NCBI RefSeq assembly: GCF_030944625.1
Contig: NZ_JAUSXY010000001.1
Coordinates: 3,224,001-3,288,000 of the forward strand
Direction of reading: 5' to 3'
Length of the DNA stretch: 64,000 nt
Source of the DNA: Arthrobacter sp. SLBN-112
GTDB taxonomy: Bacteria; Actinomycetota; Actinomycetes; Actinomycetales; Micrococcaceae
Positions 11,655-33,023 of the stretch are shown here, in pieces. Position numbers and translations under genes: made by a program. Position 1 is the stretch's first letter; every line of letters begins with the position of its first letter. A model generated the notes under the pieces. The model searched no databases and was not told where the DNA came from. It saw only the letters and a list, made by a program, of their open reading frames with translations.

Positions 11655-11830
11655 CCACCCATTCTAGGAGCTGGCGCTTCATCGAGGCATCGGACATTCT
11701 CACAATGCATGCTGACGATCACCGGCAGGCCGAGGAACGGCCACAGCCCGACCACTTACCAAACACGACTCAGCCCAATGCGAGGTCTCGAAACCTCTGC
11801 GCGGCGAGTTCAGATGGTGAGTGCAACACC

Positions 11831-13050
11831 CTGAATTCTGTGGGGTGCCGTCGATGGGCAGGCCGTGGTCGCCGTTGAGTGTTCGTTTAGCGTTCTGGGA
11901 AGGGATGGATGCCGGGCTGGCGGTAGCCGTAGCGGCGCGGGCCGCGGGGGTGTCGCGTCCGACTGCGTACCGGTGGTTGAGCGACCATCAGAAGGTGTTG
12001 CCATCGCCGCTTCCGAATTTCAGTGTGCCCCGTGCAGGGCTGTTGTCGTTGCGTGAGCGGGAAGAGATCGGCTTCCAGCTTGCCCAGGGCCATGGAGTGC
12101 GTCGTATCGCCGCCTTCCTGGGCCGGGCTCCGTCGACAATCAGCCGGGAGATCGCGAGGAACCGCGTCAGTGACCGGTATTCGCCATCGCTCGCGCAGGA
12201 ACAGACGTGGGCCCGTGCCCGCAGGCCGAAGCCGCGAAAGCTGGACGGGATAGCGTTACGGGAACAGGTCACCACGATGCTCACCGACCGGTTCAGCCCG
12301 GAGCAAATCGCGGGCCGACTCAAGGTGGAGCATCCGGAGAATCCGGAGATGCAGGTGTCACACGAAACGATCTATCAGGCCCTGTACGTCCAGGGCCGCG
12401 GATCCTTGCGCCTGGAAGTTGCGACGGCGCTGCGGTCCGGCCGGGTGCGTCGGCGCCCGCAAAGGCCGGAAGGTCCTCGCCCGCAACGGTTCCAGGAGAT
12501 GGTGATGATCTCTGACCGGCCGGCCGAGGTCGAGGACCGCGCCGTTCCCGGCCATTGGGAAGGGGCTTAATCATCGGTTCAACGGCATCGAGATCCGCGA
12601 TCGGGACCCTTGTCGAACGCGCAACCGGATATGTGATGTTGCTGCATCTGCCAGAGGACCATACCGCCCGCACCGTCGCCGACGCCATGATCACCGCGAT
12701 GAATAGCCTGCCCGAGCAATTGCGCCGTTCGACGACCTGGGATCCAGGAGCGGAGATGTCCCGGCATCAGGAGATCACGATGGCGACCGGTATGCCGATC
12801 TATTTCTGCGACCCCCATTCGCCCTGGCAGCGCGGCACCAACGAAAACACCAACGGGCTCCTCCGCGAGTACTTCCCGAAAAGCACCGACCTGTCATTCC
12901 ACGGGCCCGGAATCCTCGAAAACGTCGCCGCGGAACTCAACCGCCGGCCACGGAAACGACACGGCTACCGAACGCCCGCAGAAGTCCTCGCCGAGCTAGT
13001 CTCGAACCCAGCTAACTAAGTCCGGTGTTGCAGGCACCACTGGAATTCGC
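11831..13050 (+). mobile_element. IS30-family insertion sequence, inactivated
   Basis: Imperfect terminal inverted repeats are visible: GAATTCTGTGGGGTGCC at 11833-11849, against the inverse of GGCACCACTGGAATTC at 13033-13048. They frame a single transposase gene on the plus strand. Exact ends and target duplications could not be fixed by eye. Confidence 0.65.
11854..13019 (+). pseudogene. IS30-family transposase with one-base frameshift
   Basis: The reading frame starts at ATG 11854 with an N-terminal helix-turn-helix (SVRLAFWEGMDAG, GVSRPTAYRWL) and a second one (GVRRIAAFLGRAPSTISREI). The family motif VSHETIYQALYVQG and the sequence GHWEG follow. The first catalytic Asp of the DDE core should follow as GD; instead a base is missing between 12565 and 12566, so the frame stops at 12570. 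The other frame continues with LIIGSTASRSAIGTLVERAT, TTWDPGAEM with the second Asp, and WQRGTNENTNGLLREYFPK with the Glu. The span is 1166 bases, one short of 389 codons. Confidence 0.88.
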
Positions 13051-13369
13051 CGCATCAGACTCGCGATTCGAGACAACCGGTCAGCAGGCGAGAGCCGGCC
13101 TGACTGCCACTTACACCCGCGGAGGGGCATCCGAAAGCGACTTGTAGGGGGGGGGGCTGGAGCCCCGGCATTCATCGGACCAACCACCCCAAATCGCAGT
13201 CACGTTGTGCTCCAAGAATCGACTTTTGAGTCAGCCGTGATCGAAAGGTTTTATGGCCCAACCAGGCATCAGACTCACGTCCTCACGGCCCCCGCATAAA
13301 GCAGACGTAAGTGTGGACAGTAATGATGAAATTGGCTGTGTCGCGGGGTGACTCTAAGTGTGGCTGACG

Positions 13370-13490
13370 CCCTGTGAGGGTTTGTCTTGACATTGATCTG
13401 TCCGCCGCGACACAACCCGCAGTAAACGCGGCGGCCAGGTGGACATGACCTTATAGGAGCCTGTTCCGAAGAGTCCCATTACTGTCTTGT
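13370..13490 (+). ncRNA. Candidate IS110 bridge RNA
   Basis: IS110 elements carry a structured RNA upstream of the transposase that pairs with target and donor DNA. Here CCGCCGCG (13402-13409) pairs with CGCGGCGG (13428-13435). It is flanked on the 5' side by TTGACATTG (13387-13395), close to the target TGGACATTG. On the 3' side lies GTGGACAT (13439-13446), complementary to the right half of the target. Next comes ATAGGAGC (13453-13460), identical to the right end at 14959-14966. CATTACTG (13477-13484) is the exact complement of CAGTAATG at the left junction (13318-13325). The order target loop then donor loop matches known bridge RNAs. RNA limits are approximate. Confidence 0.65.
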
Positions 13491-13558
13491 CTGCCCACCC
13501 GGCCGAAGCGTGCCCCTTTCTCATCGCATGCAACGGAAAGGCCAGGGCAGTTTTCATC

Positions 13559-14953
13559 ATGACAAACGAACAGCTGAAAGTCATCGCCGGGATCGACACC
13601 CACTCCGATACCCACCACGTCGCCCTCATCACCGACACCGGCCGGCACCTGGCCGACAGGGAATTCCTCACGGCGGGGTCCGGCTACCGGCGCATCATCG
13701 AGTTCATCGCGGAGTTCGGTCCGGTCCTTGCTGTCGGCGTGGAAGGGACCGGCAGCTACGGGGCAGAACTCTCCCGCGTACTCGTCCGCGAGGGCATTCA
13801 CGTCGTGGAGGTTATGCGCCCGAACCGGCAGGCCCGCCGGCTGCAGGGAAAATCCGACCCGCTCGACGCCTATCAGGCTGCCGAATCGGTATTGTCCGGC
13901 CGCGCCGGCGCCACCCCGAAATCCCGGGACGGAGCAGTGGAATCATTGCGGGTGCTGCGCGCCGAGCGCGCCACCGCAATGCGCGCCCGGGTCGCCGTGA
14001 TGGCCCAGGTCAAGGCCATCCTGGTGACCGCCCCGGAAACGATCCGCGCCAGGTACCGGGCCATGACCAGTCCCGCCTTGATGGCTGCACTGGAAAAGAC
14101 CCGGCCCTCAGGACCGGCCTCCGAGCCGCTGACCAGCACCGCGACCGTGCTCAAACGCCTCGCCGTCCGCTACCGGCACCTGCACCAGGAACTGGCACTG
14201 ATCGACGCCGAACTCGACGCCATCCTCGCCCTTCACGCACCGATGCTCCGCGATTTACAGGGCGTGGGCACCGACGTCGCCAGCCAGCTCCTCGTAACGG
14301 TGGGAGACAACCCCGAACGCGTGAACTCCGAAGCGAAGTTCGCAGCCCTGGTCGGCGTCGCCCCGGTCCCCGCATCATCGGGAAAGACCTCCCGGCATCG
14401 GCTCAGCCGCGGCGGCGACCGGCAGGCCAACAAAGCAATCCACCGCGTGGTGCTCGTGCGGATGAGGCACGACAGCAGGACCAGGGACTATGTGGCCAGA
14501 CGACGCCAAGAAGGCAAAAGCACCAAGGAAATCATGCGCTGCCTCAAACGCTACGTCGCCCGGGAAATCTACGGCCAACTCCTCCACCCATCCCCCGCCC
14601 CGGATACTGGAACCCTCCGGACAACACGTACCGCCAAACGGCTGACCCTTCAACAGGCCGCCGACGCCCTCCACGTCTGGCCCACCGCACTGTCCCGCCT
14701 CGAACGCGGACTCACCCACGACAACGACTTCCACCAACGCTACGAAACCTGGCTCAACTGCCAAACCCCGGCAACCATACACATGCCGGATCCCGGGTTT
14801 GGCCCGCATGCTGCCCGCCTGACCATGGCCGGTGCAAGCCCCGGGGTCAAGGGCGGCCGCAGGCCGTCGCGCAGCGATCGCAAAAGAGCGACCCTTGAGG
14901 CCGGAACTGCCGGCCGCGGTAACCTCCGCAGCGCGTGGCCGCGCGCCCGTTGA
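13559..14953 (+). CDS. IS110-family transposase (DEDD recombinase) with C-terminal HTH-like tail
   Basis: A 464-residue recombinase. The RuvC-like domain begins IAGIDTHSDTHHVALI (first Asp), followed by GVEGTGSYGAELSRVL (Glu) and GKSDPLDAYQAAESVL (Asp residues). A transposase_20 domain contains LQGVGTDVASQLLVTVGDNP, FAALVGVAPVPASSGKT and RQANKAIHRVV with the catalytic Ser region. After YGQLL, where many relatives end (about residue 345), an extension reads LTLQQAADALHVWPTALSRL, resembling an XRE-type helix-turn-helix. The frame is intact, so the element may be active. ATG 13559 is chosen because homology starts there. Confidence 0.88.
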   Translation: MTNEQLKVIAGIDTHSDTHHVALITDTGRHLADREFLTAGSGYRRIIEFIAEFGPVLAVGVEGTGSYGAELSRVLVREGIHVVEVMRPNRQARRLQGKSDPLDAYQAAESVLSGRAGATPKSRDGAVESLRVLRAERATAMRARVAVMAQVKAILVTAPETIRARYRAMTSPALMAALEKTRPSGPASEPLTSTATVLKRLAVRYRHLHQELALIDAELDAILALHAPMLRDLQGVGTDVASQLLVTVGDNPERVNSEAKFAALVGVAPVPASSGKTSRHRLSRGGDRQANKAIHRVVLVRMRHDSRTRDYVARRRQEGKSTKEIMRCLKRYVAREIYGQLLHPSPAPDTGTLRTTRTAKRLTLQQAADALHVWPTALSRLERGLTHDNDFHQRYETWLNCQTPATIHMPDPGFGPHAARLTMAGASPGVKGGRRPSRSDRKRATLEAGTAGRGNLRSAWPRAR

Positions 14954-15002
14954 CAACAATAGGAGCATCATTGTCCACACGCCCTTTCGGGGGCGTAAAG
15001 GA

Positions 15003-15206
15003 CTATCGGGGCACCAGATGTTCCGAAATCTGCGCGGCAGGGTCCAACAAATCGATAGTGCCCGCGGCGACTCCGACGACGAGGTCGAAGCCTTCATCCG
15101 TGGTGAAGCCATGCCGGTAACCGTTAATCCACAGCAACAGCACCATGAGCGTCCACGCCGTCCGTTTGTTGCCGTCAATGAGTGGAACCGGGCGACCGTA
15201 GCCCAA
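15003..15206 (-). pseudogene. Doc/Fic-type toxin pseudogene (3' part)
   Basis: The last 55 or so codons match the intact Doc at 31559-31927: DGNKRTAWTLMVLLLWINGY, then EGFDLVVGVAAG, ending HLVPR. The upstream codons read ATVARFH in another frame. Comparison with the intact gene shows a four-base deletion in the catalytic HPLVDGNKR motif (about 15178-15186). The N-terminal half and any antitoxin are missing. It lies just right of the IS110 element, whose arrival may have caused the loss. Confidence 0.75.
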
Positions 15207-31558: not shown

Positions 31559-31927
31559 TTATCGCGGCAGCAGGTGCCGTGAGATCGACTCAGCCGCGGT
31601 CCTGAGATCAACGGAACCAGCTGCAACCCCGACAACGAGGTCGAATCCCTCATTTGTAGCGAAATCATGCCTGTATCCGTTAATCCACAACAACAAAACC
31701 ACGAGCGTCCACGCCGTACGCTTGTTGCCATCAACCAGGGGATGAAAGCGCGCCACCGACTCCAGCAACGCGGCACCCTTCAACGCCAACCCCGGGTACG
31801 CCTCGGAGCCCATGACCGTTGTCGCGGGCCGTGCCAACGCCGATGCCAGCAGGCCGACGTCCCGAATGTGGAAGCCGTACCGGTCAACAACCTGAAGCGC
31901 GTCCTCAATATCCAGATACGCGGTCAC
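31559..31927 (-). CDS. doc: Doc-type (Fic-fold) toxin of a toxin-antitoxin pair
   Basis: A 122-residue death-on-curing toxin. The Fic catalytic motif reads ARFHPLVDGNKRTAW, with the His and the GNKR anion loop intact. Known Doc toxins phosphorylate elongation factor EF-Tu and block translation. The GTG start at 31927 overlaps the antitoxin stop as GTGA. A damaged partial copy lies at 15003-15206. The intact pair would stabilise the replicon or island that carries it. Confidence 0.88.
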   Translation of the reverse strand: MTAYLDIEDALQVVDRYGFHIRDVGLLASALARPATTVMGSEAYPGLALKGAALLESVARFHPLVDGNKRTAWTLVVLLLWINGYRHDFATNEGFDLVVGVAAGSVDLRTAAESISRHLLPR

Positions 31928-32130
31928 GCGTCCTCGAGGCGCGTCAGCAATTCTGCGTCATGACTTATGACGAAATCCAATCCCGCGCTGATTTCACGGC
32001 GACGTGCGTGGCGCTGCAAAATCAGCTCAGCTCCCTGGAGCAGGAGGGCAGACTTGGACGTGTGTTCCTCGGCAGCGAGCTGCTCCAGCCGGCGATCGAG
32101 TTCTTCGGGTACACGCAGATTCATTGCCAT
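31924..32130 (-). CDS. Ribbon-helix-helix antitoxin partner of Doc
   Basis: A 68-residue CopG-like antitoxin. The DNA-binding N-terminus is MAMNLRVPEELDRRLEQLAA and the C-terminal tail (SAGLDFVISHDAELLTRLED) would wrap the toxin. It precedes and overlaps the toxin gene as expected. The classical P1 partner of Doc is Phd; here an RHH protein takes its place, a common actinobacterial arrangement. ATG 32130 is used because the operator lies immediately upstream. Confidence 0.85.
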   Translation of the reverse strand: MAMNLRVPEELDRRLEQLAAEEHTSKSALLLQGAELILQRHARRREISAGLDFVISHDAELLTRLEDA

Positions 32131-32135
32131 ACCTA

Positions 32136-32153
32136 ATGGTACCAAGATGGTAC
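32136..32153 (-). promoter_or_regulatory. Direct-repeat operator of the toxin-antitoxin operon
   Basis: ATGGTAC occurs at 32136-32142 and again at 32147-32153, an 11-base period, and GGTACC within it is palindromic. It starts six bases upstream of the antitoxin ATG. Tandem short repeats on one face of DNA are the usual target of RHH antitoxins, so autoregulation is likely. Confidence 0.65.
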
Positions 32154-32250
32154 TAGCCGTGGATGAACGATCCCTCCGGCCCGAAAGCCATTCCTCCCAG
32201 CGTCTCGGGGGCCTACCACCGCGGGCACCCCTCCAATAAAGCAGACATAA

Positions 32251-32269
32251 GTGTGGATATTGTCCACAC
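32251..32269. repeat. Palindromic repeat GTGTGGATATTGTCCACAC
   Basis: A near-perfect palindrome with one mismatch. Relatives are at 32735-32753 and, split by IS110, at 13311-13319/14971-14980. The left flank is shared with the split copy (ATAAAGCAGAC). Confidence 0.7.
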
Positions 32270-32734
32270 CCTCGTTGGCAGGACAAACAGGCCACCCGCC
32301 AGCTCTGATGCAGGCAGGGAGGCAGCAAGCAAGAAGGGTCCGCATAAAAATCGGCTAGGTCATGTTGTCCCTGCTCCCCAGGACCCTGAATAGGTGTTGG
32401 ACAACCACGCCCAACCAGACAGGACCGAAACGAGGAAGCACTCAGTCCCCATGACAGCAGGCGGAAGGCCCACCAGCCAGGGACTTGAACCCGCCACCCA
32501 CACACCTGAACAGGCCCCCTCGGCAGCCAGGCTAAAGCCCGCCACCCCGCTCGTCAAATGACGCGAACGCAAGCTTTGTCACACGTCAAAGCAAAATCGC
32601 CCCTGACGAGGGAATACGTCGTACCCGAGGTGGGACTCGAACTGTCTTCCCGGCCTTGAAAACACTGGGAGCCCGCGGAAACATGCGGAATACGAAGCAG
32701 TCCGACGGCTGTACCAGCCACTCTGAGGCTGAAA

Positions 32735-32753
32735 GTGTGGACATTGTCCACAC
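32735..32753. repeat. Palindromic repeat GTGTGGACATTGTCCACAC
   Basis: Perfect 8-base arms around ATT. It is identical to the target sequence reconstructed around the IS110 element at 13320-14970. Confidence 0.75.
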
Positions 32754-32819
32754 CCCATTTGCCCCCGGTATGGGTCACACACGCGAAGCCGGCGTGGCCG
32801 CCCCGGTATGCCTAAGGGA

Positions 32820-33023
32820 TTAAGTGGCTGGTGCCACAACGTCGTCCAACACTGACCTGTCGAAGAAACGGATCTCGCCCGTTGCCTCGAAGAACACCGG
32901 AACTACTGATGTACTCAAGTCTTTGGACGTTTCGTAGATTTCAGCCGCACTCCCGTGCTTCCTGGCAATTGTTCCAACCAGCTCGGTACCGCGAACCCGA
33001 ACAGTGCGATATTTGTGGCTCAT
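32820..33023 (-). CDS. Small hypothetical protein of 67 residues
   Basis: ATG 33023 has AAGGGG upstream (about 33029-33034). The product starts MSHKYRTVRVRGTELVGTIA and ends with GEIRFFDRSVLDDVVAPAT. The strand pattern is beta-rich with balanced charge and coding-like composition. No family was recognised. It may be a leftover of plasmid or integron cargo. Confidence 0.5.
   Translation of the reverse strand: MSHKYRTVRVRGTELVGTIARKHGSAAEIYETSKDLSTSVVPVFFEATGEIRFFDRSVLDDVVAPAT

Follow-up and report, generated by a model that had tools for sequence, protein, structure and literature searches.

An IS110-group insertion sequence in an Arthrobacter-type chromosome, its predicted bridge RNA and its palindromic target

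The window, the whole stretch of 64,000 nucleotides analysed here, contains an insertion sequence that splits a palindrome. This locus raises the question of how the element recognises such a site, and where exactly its ends lie. The initial annotation read it as an IS110 element with a bridge RNA in its leader, and the recombinase domains and a covarying two-loop leader uphold this reading. The sequence at 13319-14969 is an IS110-group insertion sequence of 1651 bp in an Arthrobacter-type chromosome. We assign a probability of about 0.93 to the reading in which it has an intact recombinase frame, a promoter at the circle junction and a two-loop bridge RNA that reads both the target and the element's own ends, with exchange 3' of a shared C.

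The element, its ends and its relatives

13311..13318, plus strand: left half of the target, GTGTGGAC, from the sequence
13319..14969, plus strand: IS110-group insertion sequence, 1651 bp, ends from the split palindrome and relatives
13559..14953, plus strand: recombinase gene, 464 aa, intact frame
14970..14980, plus strand: right half of the target, ATTGTCCACAC, from the sequence

The target palindrome for the element is GTGTGGACATTGTCCACAC, and at the insertion it is split as GTGTGGACA-N-TGTCCACAC. The initial annotation had set the ends from this split palindrome, and the relatives agree. Among them the base preceding GTAAT follows the element (A or G), and the one following ...GCATC, which can be A, C or G, follows the target. 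What comes after the C is thus linked to the element at the left junction and to the target at the right; this places the exchange immediately 3' of that C and gives the extent listed above.

The recombinase contains PF01548, the RuvC-like DEDD domain, and PF02371, the Tnp domain with the serine, both above their cut-offs (72.9 and 71.7 bits). Its NCBIfam label is 'IS110 family RNA-guided transposase', and the two solved structures matching its sequence are those of IS621 and ISCro4. Residues D13, E62, D100, D103 and S274 align with IS621 active-site residues, in an N-terminal alignment that is weak (i-Evalue 0.3). The layout is that of the IS110 group, with a 240-base non-coding left end that holds the RNA and 16 bases beyond the stop codon at the right; in the IS1111 group the RNA is in a long right end. 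Insertion is site-specific, with no target duplication beyond the core, as seen from the palindromes split in relatives. The CT core dinucleotide of the IS621 subtype is absent, exchange being 3' of the C with a target ending in AC and a donor ending in TC. The host genome has a single copy of the element at E 0.001 or better.

The recombinase has a C-terminal extension in which residues 361-384 (14639-14710) give a weak HTH_31 match (22.8 bits, cut-off 27), and more distant relatives align only up to about residue 343. A GC-rich inverted repeat, GTCAAGGGCGGCC...CCCTTGAGGCC, lies at 14846-14915 within the 3' part of the frame. This repeat occurs in 11/84 of the relatives described below (8 of group A, 3 of group B) and has no second site in the 144 kb of host chromosome searched.

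Genome contigs were scanned for relatives of the recombinase, and the best 80 of 91 loci were used. A match at E 1e-50 or better is present in at least 99 of 206 genomes of the genus, with 8 candidates scored per genome; the genus is here Arthrobacter in the broad sense. The 137 loci with an N-terminal match yielded 84 distinct rows, all at 54% identity or above, which were examined. Of these, 13 lacked a recognised left end and 7 a recognised RNA 3' end; with both sets removed, and identical leaders counted once, 54 leaders remained. Hand-written rules placed the 84 rows in target groups: group A, with the window palindrome or a variant, has 24 rows, group B has 13, groups C-I have 41 and 6 are unassigned. 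On a recombinase tree of 58 rows the nine target groups take 10 changes, the minimum possible being 8.

Within group A the left flank is present in 21/24 rows and the right flank in 18/24, and these are mostly GTGTGGACA and TGTCCACAC. Variants include GTGTGCACA, GTGTTGACA and TGTACACAC, and the single clear departure on the left is TTCCGTTGACA in L104. A palindromic target makes either orientation of insertion possible. Both senses of the palindrome are seen by eye among the left flanks, one in the window element and L089 and the other in L161 and L128, and both orientations seem to be used.

Group-B insertions lie at the 3' foot of a different hairpin repeat family, for example CATACCCTC...GAGGGTATGACG, as read by eye in the left flanks of L096, L123, L168 and L169. 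The right-end motif usually lies about 1.2 kb from the recombinase start; it is 1.8-2.6 kb away in L111, L115, L145, L146, L150, L152, L157, L167 and others of groups C and F, and these relatives may carry extra cargo.

The leader RNA and its guides

13334..13505, plus strand: predicted bridge RNA, with a putative 5' end
13337..13346, plus strand: 5' strand of the target-loop stem, partner 13405-13414, covarying
13356..13364, plus strand: left target guide AAGTGTGGC, varies with the left flank in relatives
13387..13395, plus strand: right target guide TTGACATTG, complement of the right flank, varies with the right flank in relatives
13396..13397, plus strand: putative target-loop handshake bases AT, complementary to donor positions 7-8, by analogy with IS621 as described in the sections of PMC11208158 drawn on here
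13440..13445, plus strand: donor-loop stem, pairs with 13488-13493, five pairs kept in 54/54 sequences and one in 53/54
13453..13460, plus strand: left donor guide ATAGGAGC, same as 14959-14966
13477..13484, plus strand: right donor guide CATTACTG, complement of the left end
13485..13486, plus strand: donor-loop handshake bases TC, complementary to target positions 7-8

A scan of the window against Rfam at the gathering threshold matched no family, so a covariance model of our own had to be built. This model, R1, was made from relatives with other targets: groups A and B were set aside, and 22 of the remaining 27 leaders were used. Over 144 kb of host chromosome it finds the leader at 13319-13505 with 132.1 bits (E 3.4e-35), and the runner-up has 13.6 bits. 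The segment 13334-13505 folds at -71.2 kcal/mol (z -2.98), a value equally low in 1/200 shuffles.

The consensus of the 54 leaders has 31 pairs, 10 of which show two-sided changes, nine in the target-loop helix and one in its hairpin; the donor stem has none. Paired cells make up 97.7% against 88.7% in shuffles, and the covariation score is 0.313 against 0.157 +- 0.007, with slid structures reaching at most 0.063. Two of five structure measures lie near the shuffles, the observed value being reached in 16/500 and 40/500. The two target guides pair with each other when the RNA is folded alone, and the consensus keeps both open. The leader is a predicted two-loop RNA of the IS110 type, its loops matching target and donor.

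The initial annotation had taken TTGACATTG and GTGGACAT as the two target guides and CA as the core. The segments it quoted are present letter for letter (TTGACATTG at 13387-13395, GTGGACAT at 13439-13446, ATAGGAGC at 13453-13460 and 14959-14966, CATTACTG at 13477-13484). The leader alignment confirms that the target loop precedes the donor loop, and the sequence match bears out both donor guides and the right end. TTGACATTG is indeed a guide; however, it belongs to the right half of the target and is read against the top strand, and the left guide AAGTGTGGC had been missed. Both TTGACATTG and GTGGACAT are palindrome-like, and the GTGGACA within the palindrome accounts for the guide-like look of GTGGACAT. 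Against a guide role, GTGGACAT is present in 13/13 group-B elements, which have other targets, in only 15/24 of group A and in 0/47 other rows, 42 of which carry GCGGACAT. Seven group-A elements with the window target have ATGGACAT or GTGGGCAT in its place, and it is paired within the donor stem, with TGTCTG. The base after the C also differs between the left and right junctions of relatives, which argues against CA and for exchange just 3' of the C. We give this assignment of guides and core almost no credence.

The target-dependent segments of the leader are instead the nine bases before TGACG, which vary with the left flank, and the nine before ATC, which vary with the complement of the right flank. 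Guides were extracted uniformly from the alignment, giving 45 distinct left pairs from 53/54 rows and 23 right pairs from 26/54. The left guide matches its site at 0.79 of positions against 0.42 +- 0.03 in shuffles, and the right guide at 0.81 against 0.59 +- 0.03; none of 20000 shuffles reaches either value, although the rows are kin and the shuffles overstate their independence. With these guides the insertion sites of relatives agree far beyond shuffles, whereas with GTGGACAT as a guide the agreement fails. The ends, the RNA structure and the joint change of guides and sites are established here by comparison of sequences.

The fit is not uniform. The left guide of group A has a register one base further out (7.11 of 8 matched, against 3.00 of 9 at the register of the other groups), and the middle base of the palindrome agrees with the guide in 5/14. 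The right guides of group B score only 4.88 of 7, and the lone group-F row among the counted guides matches 1 of 9, being out of register. The handshake bases of the donor loop fit target positions 7 and 8, both of them, in 47/53 rows, as GTC with a site ending in GAC, GTT with AAC and GTG with CAC.

Agreement of this kind could come from shared descent alone, if kin keep both leader and old site with no base pairing between them, and most target groups are indeed clades or grades on the recombinase tree. The agreement nevertheless persists between lineages and also within group A, where the left guide matches at 0.85 against 0.71 +- 0.03 in shuffles (4/20000 reach this). L104 has the guide ATCCGTTG and the site TTCCGTTG, and in L105 guide and site are both GTGTTG. 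Moreover, the guide changes in relatives fall exactly at IS621 guide positions. We regard descent alone as very improbable.

The leader is directly upstream of the recombinase gene and would share its transcript, so it could also be mainly an mRNA leader or an attenuator controlling that gene. This explains neither the target-dependent segments nor the copies of the element's own ends in the RNA, and we attach next to no weight to it as the main role. Such a role may be additional to that of the bridge RNA.

14950..14955, plus strand: -35 TTGACA in the right end
13322..13327, plus strand: -10-like AATGAT, 17 bases past the -35 in the circle, from the sequence

The two ends of the element, when joined, would form the promoter TTGACA-17-AATGAT, a promoter rebuilt at the circle junction being a trait of the IS110 group. 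Of 37 elements with both ends, TTGACA is exact in 29, TTGACG is present in 7 and CTGACA in 1; the spacer from TTGACA to AATnnT across the joined ends is 17 bases in 29/29. A simple scan of 13200-15050 in the inserted copy gave no promoter-like site. Absence from the inserted copy and predicted restoration at the joined ends agree with the IS621 description in the sections of PMC11208158 drawn on here.

In the mechanism we propose, the excised circle would join the right end (TTGACA) to the left end (AATGAT), and the 17-base spacer between them would create a promoter from which the bridge RNA (about 172 nt) is transcribed first, followed by the recombinase. The first loop of the RNA would read the target, AAGTGTGG against the left half-site and TGACATTG against the right half-site, and the second would read the element's own joined ends through ATAGGAGC and CATTACTG. 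The bases adjoining the right guides would fit the partner DNA after strand exchange, as a handshake, and the DEDD-plus-serine recombinase would join the DNAs just 3' of the shared C. Transcription, binding of the RNA by the protein, circle formation and cleavage are here modelled on IS621.

The target unit and its place in the chromosome

32251..32753, no strand assigned: unit bounded by the palindromes 32251-32269 and 32735-32753, the kind of site used by the element
3292503-3293005 and 3326399-3326900 of the host genome: other units with paired palindromes

An intact palindrome had been reported at 32735-32753; its letters are correct, and a second, with one mismatch, is at 32251-32269. These are two matches in the window where 0.04 are expected in shuffles. 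The exact palindrome occurs in 144/204 genomes of the genus, and a reversed control pattern occurs in one. At family level the palindrome or a T/A variant is found in 10/149 genomes, which are 7/8 of the genus of the host and 3 of one other genus. In the host genome the palindromes form three pairs, 483-484 bp apart. For the stretch between them, 184/204 genomes of the genus contain a relative at E 1e-10 or better, with 3 candidates scored per genome. The palindrome is repeated, as a REP-type element would be, but with 1-12 sites per genome in a single region (20 genomes).

The most conserved block of the unit is a tRNA-Leu 3' end at 32620-32642 on the minus strand; a second T-loop-like stretch is at 32480-32491. 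An intact tRNA-Leu(CAA) is present at 8/15 loci scanned, most of them chosen since their rows showed the tRNA. In the host genome this tRNA lies about 14 kb beyond the third unit, its 3' side facing the units. The unit could be a free-standing structured RNA, as in a consensus of 16 copies its minus strand gives the lower folding energy (-92.6 against -64.7 kcal/mol); against this, its most conserved block is a tRNA fragment. In 32100-32900 a permissive Rfam scan yielded two snoRNA-like matches at chance level, and a search of a plasmid collection with the unit gave no match.

Enzymes that might move the units were sought among their neighbours. Tyrosine integrases do not lie beside them in the host genome, whose two PF00589 matches are both more than 190 kb away. 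The 20 proteins near the three host units include no recombinase family, and none stood out by eye in the flanking frames of units in other genomes. A Fic/DOC-family gene at 31559-31927 (minus) adjoins the intact unit, a similar gene survives as a broken C-terminal piece at about 14990-15200 (minus), to the right of the insertion sequence, and DOC-like frames adjoin units at 11 loci among those examined.

In 20 genomes chosen among palindrome carriers (19 in one contig and one in two, with several sizes rounded and one estimated), 92/92 exact palindromes lie at 0.40-0.49 of the circle from dnaA. Terminus organisation is the function of matS sites, and the palindrome was considered as a matS-like site. 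This was rejected: the unit has a tRNA-Leu 3' end, and the palindromes lie to one side only, at 145-581 kb, of a 12-mer which we take to be dif-like, in the 8/20 genomes that have it. Copies of the element were mapped solely where dnaA was located, and L158, which has no recognised left end, was left out. Ten group-A copies in 6 genomes map at 0.39-0.48 of the circle, and the 19 from other groups, spread over 10 genomes, map at 0.00-0.48. Guide sequence is thereby linked to chromosomal location, palindrome-guided copies being near the terminus in 10/10 cases and the others within that range in 4/19 (p 0.0013 counted by copy and 0.016 by genome).

At the insertion site itself, the left flank (13067-13318) matches, at 85% over 253 columns, the sequence outside palindrome 1 of units elsewhere (L260), on its left. 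The right flank (14969-15198) matches, at 89% over 235 columns, the sequence outside palindrome 2 (L249), on its right. Between the two flanks there is no unit. The flanks are the two outer sides of a unit that is missing, so the insertion sequence stands in place of a whole unit, which was lost before or after insertion. The element may have entered one palindrome of a unit whose 484 bp were then lost, for example by recombination between two copies of the insertion sequence, as opposed to entering a lone palindrome. The match to both outer sides fits this course; no intermediate is seen, however, and a palindrome-to-palindrome deletion before insertion yields the same letters. We lean slightly away from the later loss. 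An apparently broken IS30-type transposase lies nearby at 11821-13019, in two overlapping frames (11821-12570 and 12555-13019).

We offer one tentative and rather unlikely explanation of the units. They might serve as attachment modules for genomic islands of a family as yet undescribed, which would accumulate downstream of tRNA-Leu(CAA) in Arthrobacter. The enzyme moving them would be something other than a tyrosine integrase encoded next to them, and this IS110 lineage would have programmed its bridge RNA to the palindromes that mark the modules. If so, two short guides would fix the chromosomal address of the element, which would travel with islands and break them.

Comparison with known RNA-guided elements

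Among the papers listed in a search of the open-access literature, with subscription journals mostly outside its scope, none dealt with this element or with the unit that it targets, as judged by titles and abstract openings.

Kocuria rhizophila is another actinobacterium. Its IS110 element ISKrh6 resembles the window element in that an upstream RNA region is assumed, and the part of PMC12500396 drawn on here leaves the ends and target of ISKrh6 undetermined.

The closest parallel is IS621, as described in sections of Durrant 2024 (PMC11208160) and Hiraizumi 2024 (PMC11208158). The two elements share protein domains, an RNA in the long left end with the target loop followed by the donor loop, a left guide read against the bottom strand and a right guide read against the top strand, a circle-junction promoter and handshake bases. 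IS621 has a CT core, whereas the window element exchanges at a shared C. Unlike the IS621 of these sections, the window element has a palindromic target that bounds a tRNA-linked unit, a left guide one base off the usual register, and a recombinase that exceeds 400 aa and matches an HTH weakly at its C-terminus.

The seekRNAs of ISEc21 and the IS1111 elements (Siddiquee 2024, PMC11187229, in part) are similar in that an RNA from a non-coding region picks the target, with natural reprogramming among relatives, and some elements of that system use REP or integron attC sites. In the IS1111 elements described there the RNA lies downstream of the gene, whereas in the window element it is upstream, and the targets are unrelated. 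IS4321 and IS5075, IS1111 elements at the ends of Tn21 (from passages in PMC11208160 and PMC11187229), likewise are guided insertion sequences that home on a recombination-related site of another mobile element. They differ from the window element in group and target, and the unit is only a putative attachment module of a mobile element.

Bridge RNAs of IS110 elements and their change together with targets are already published (PMC11208160; PMC11187229, both in part), and the element adds to this known class of RNA-guided IS110 elements. Its relatives, most of them from a single genus, make up a natural set of close kin; guides have been rewritten several times among them, and the sites can be read. 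The programming rules of bridge RNAs, such as register, tolerated mismatches and handshake bases, are directly testable in such a set.
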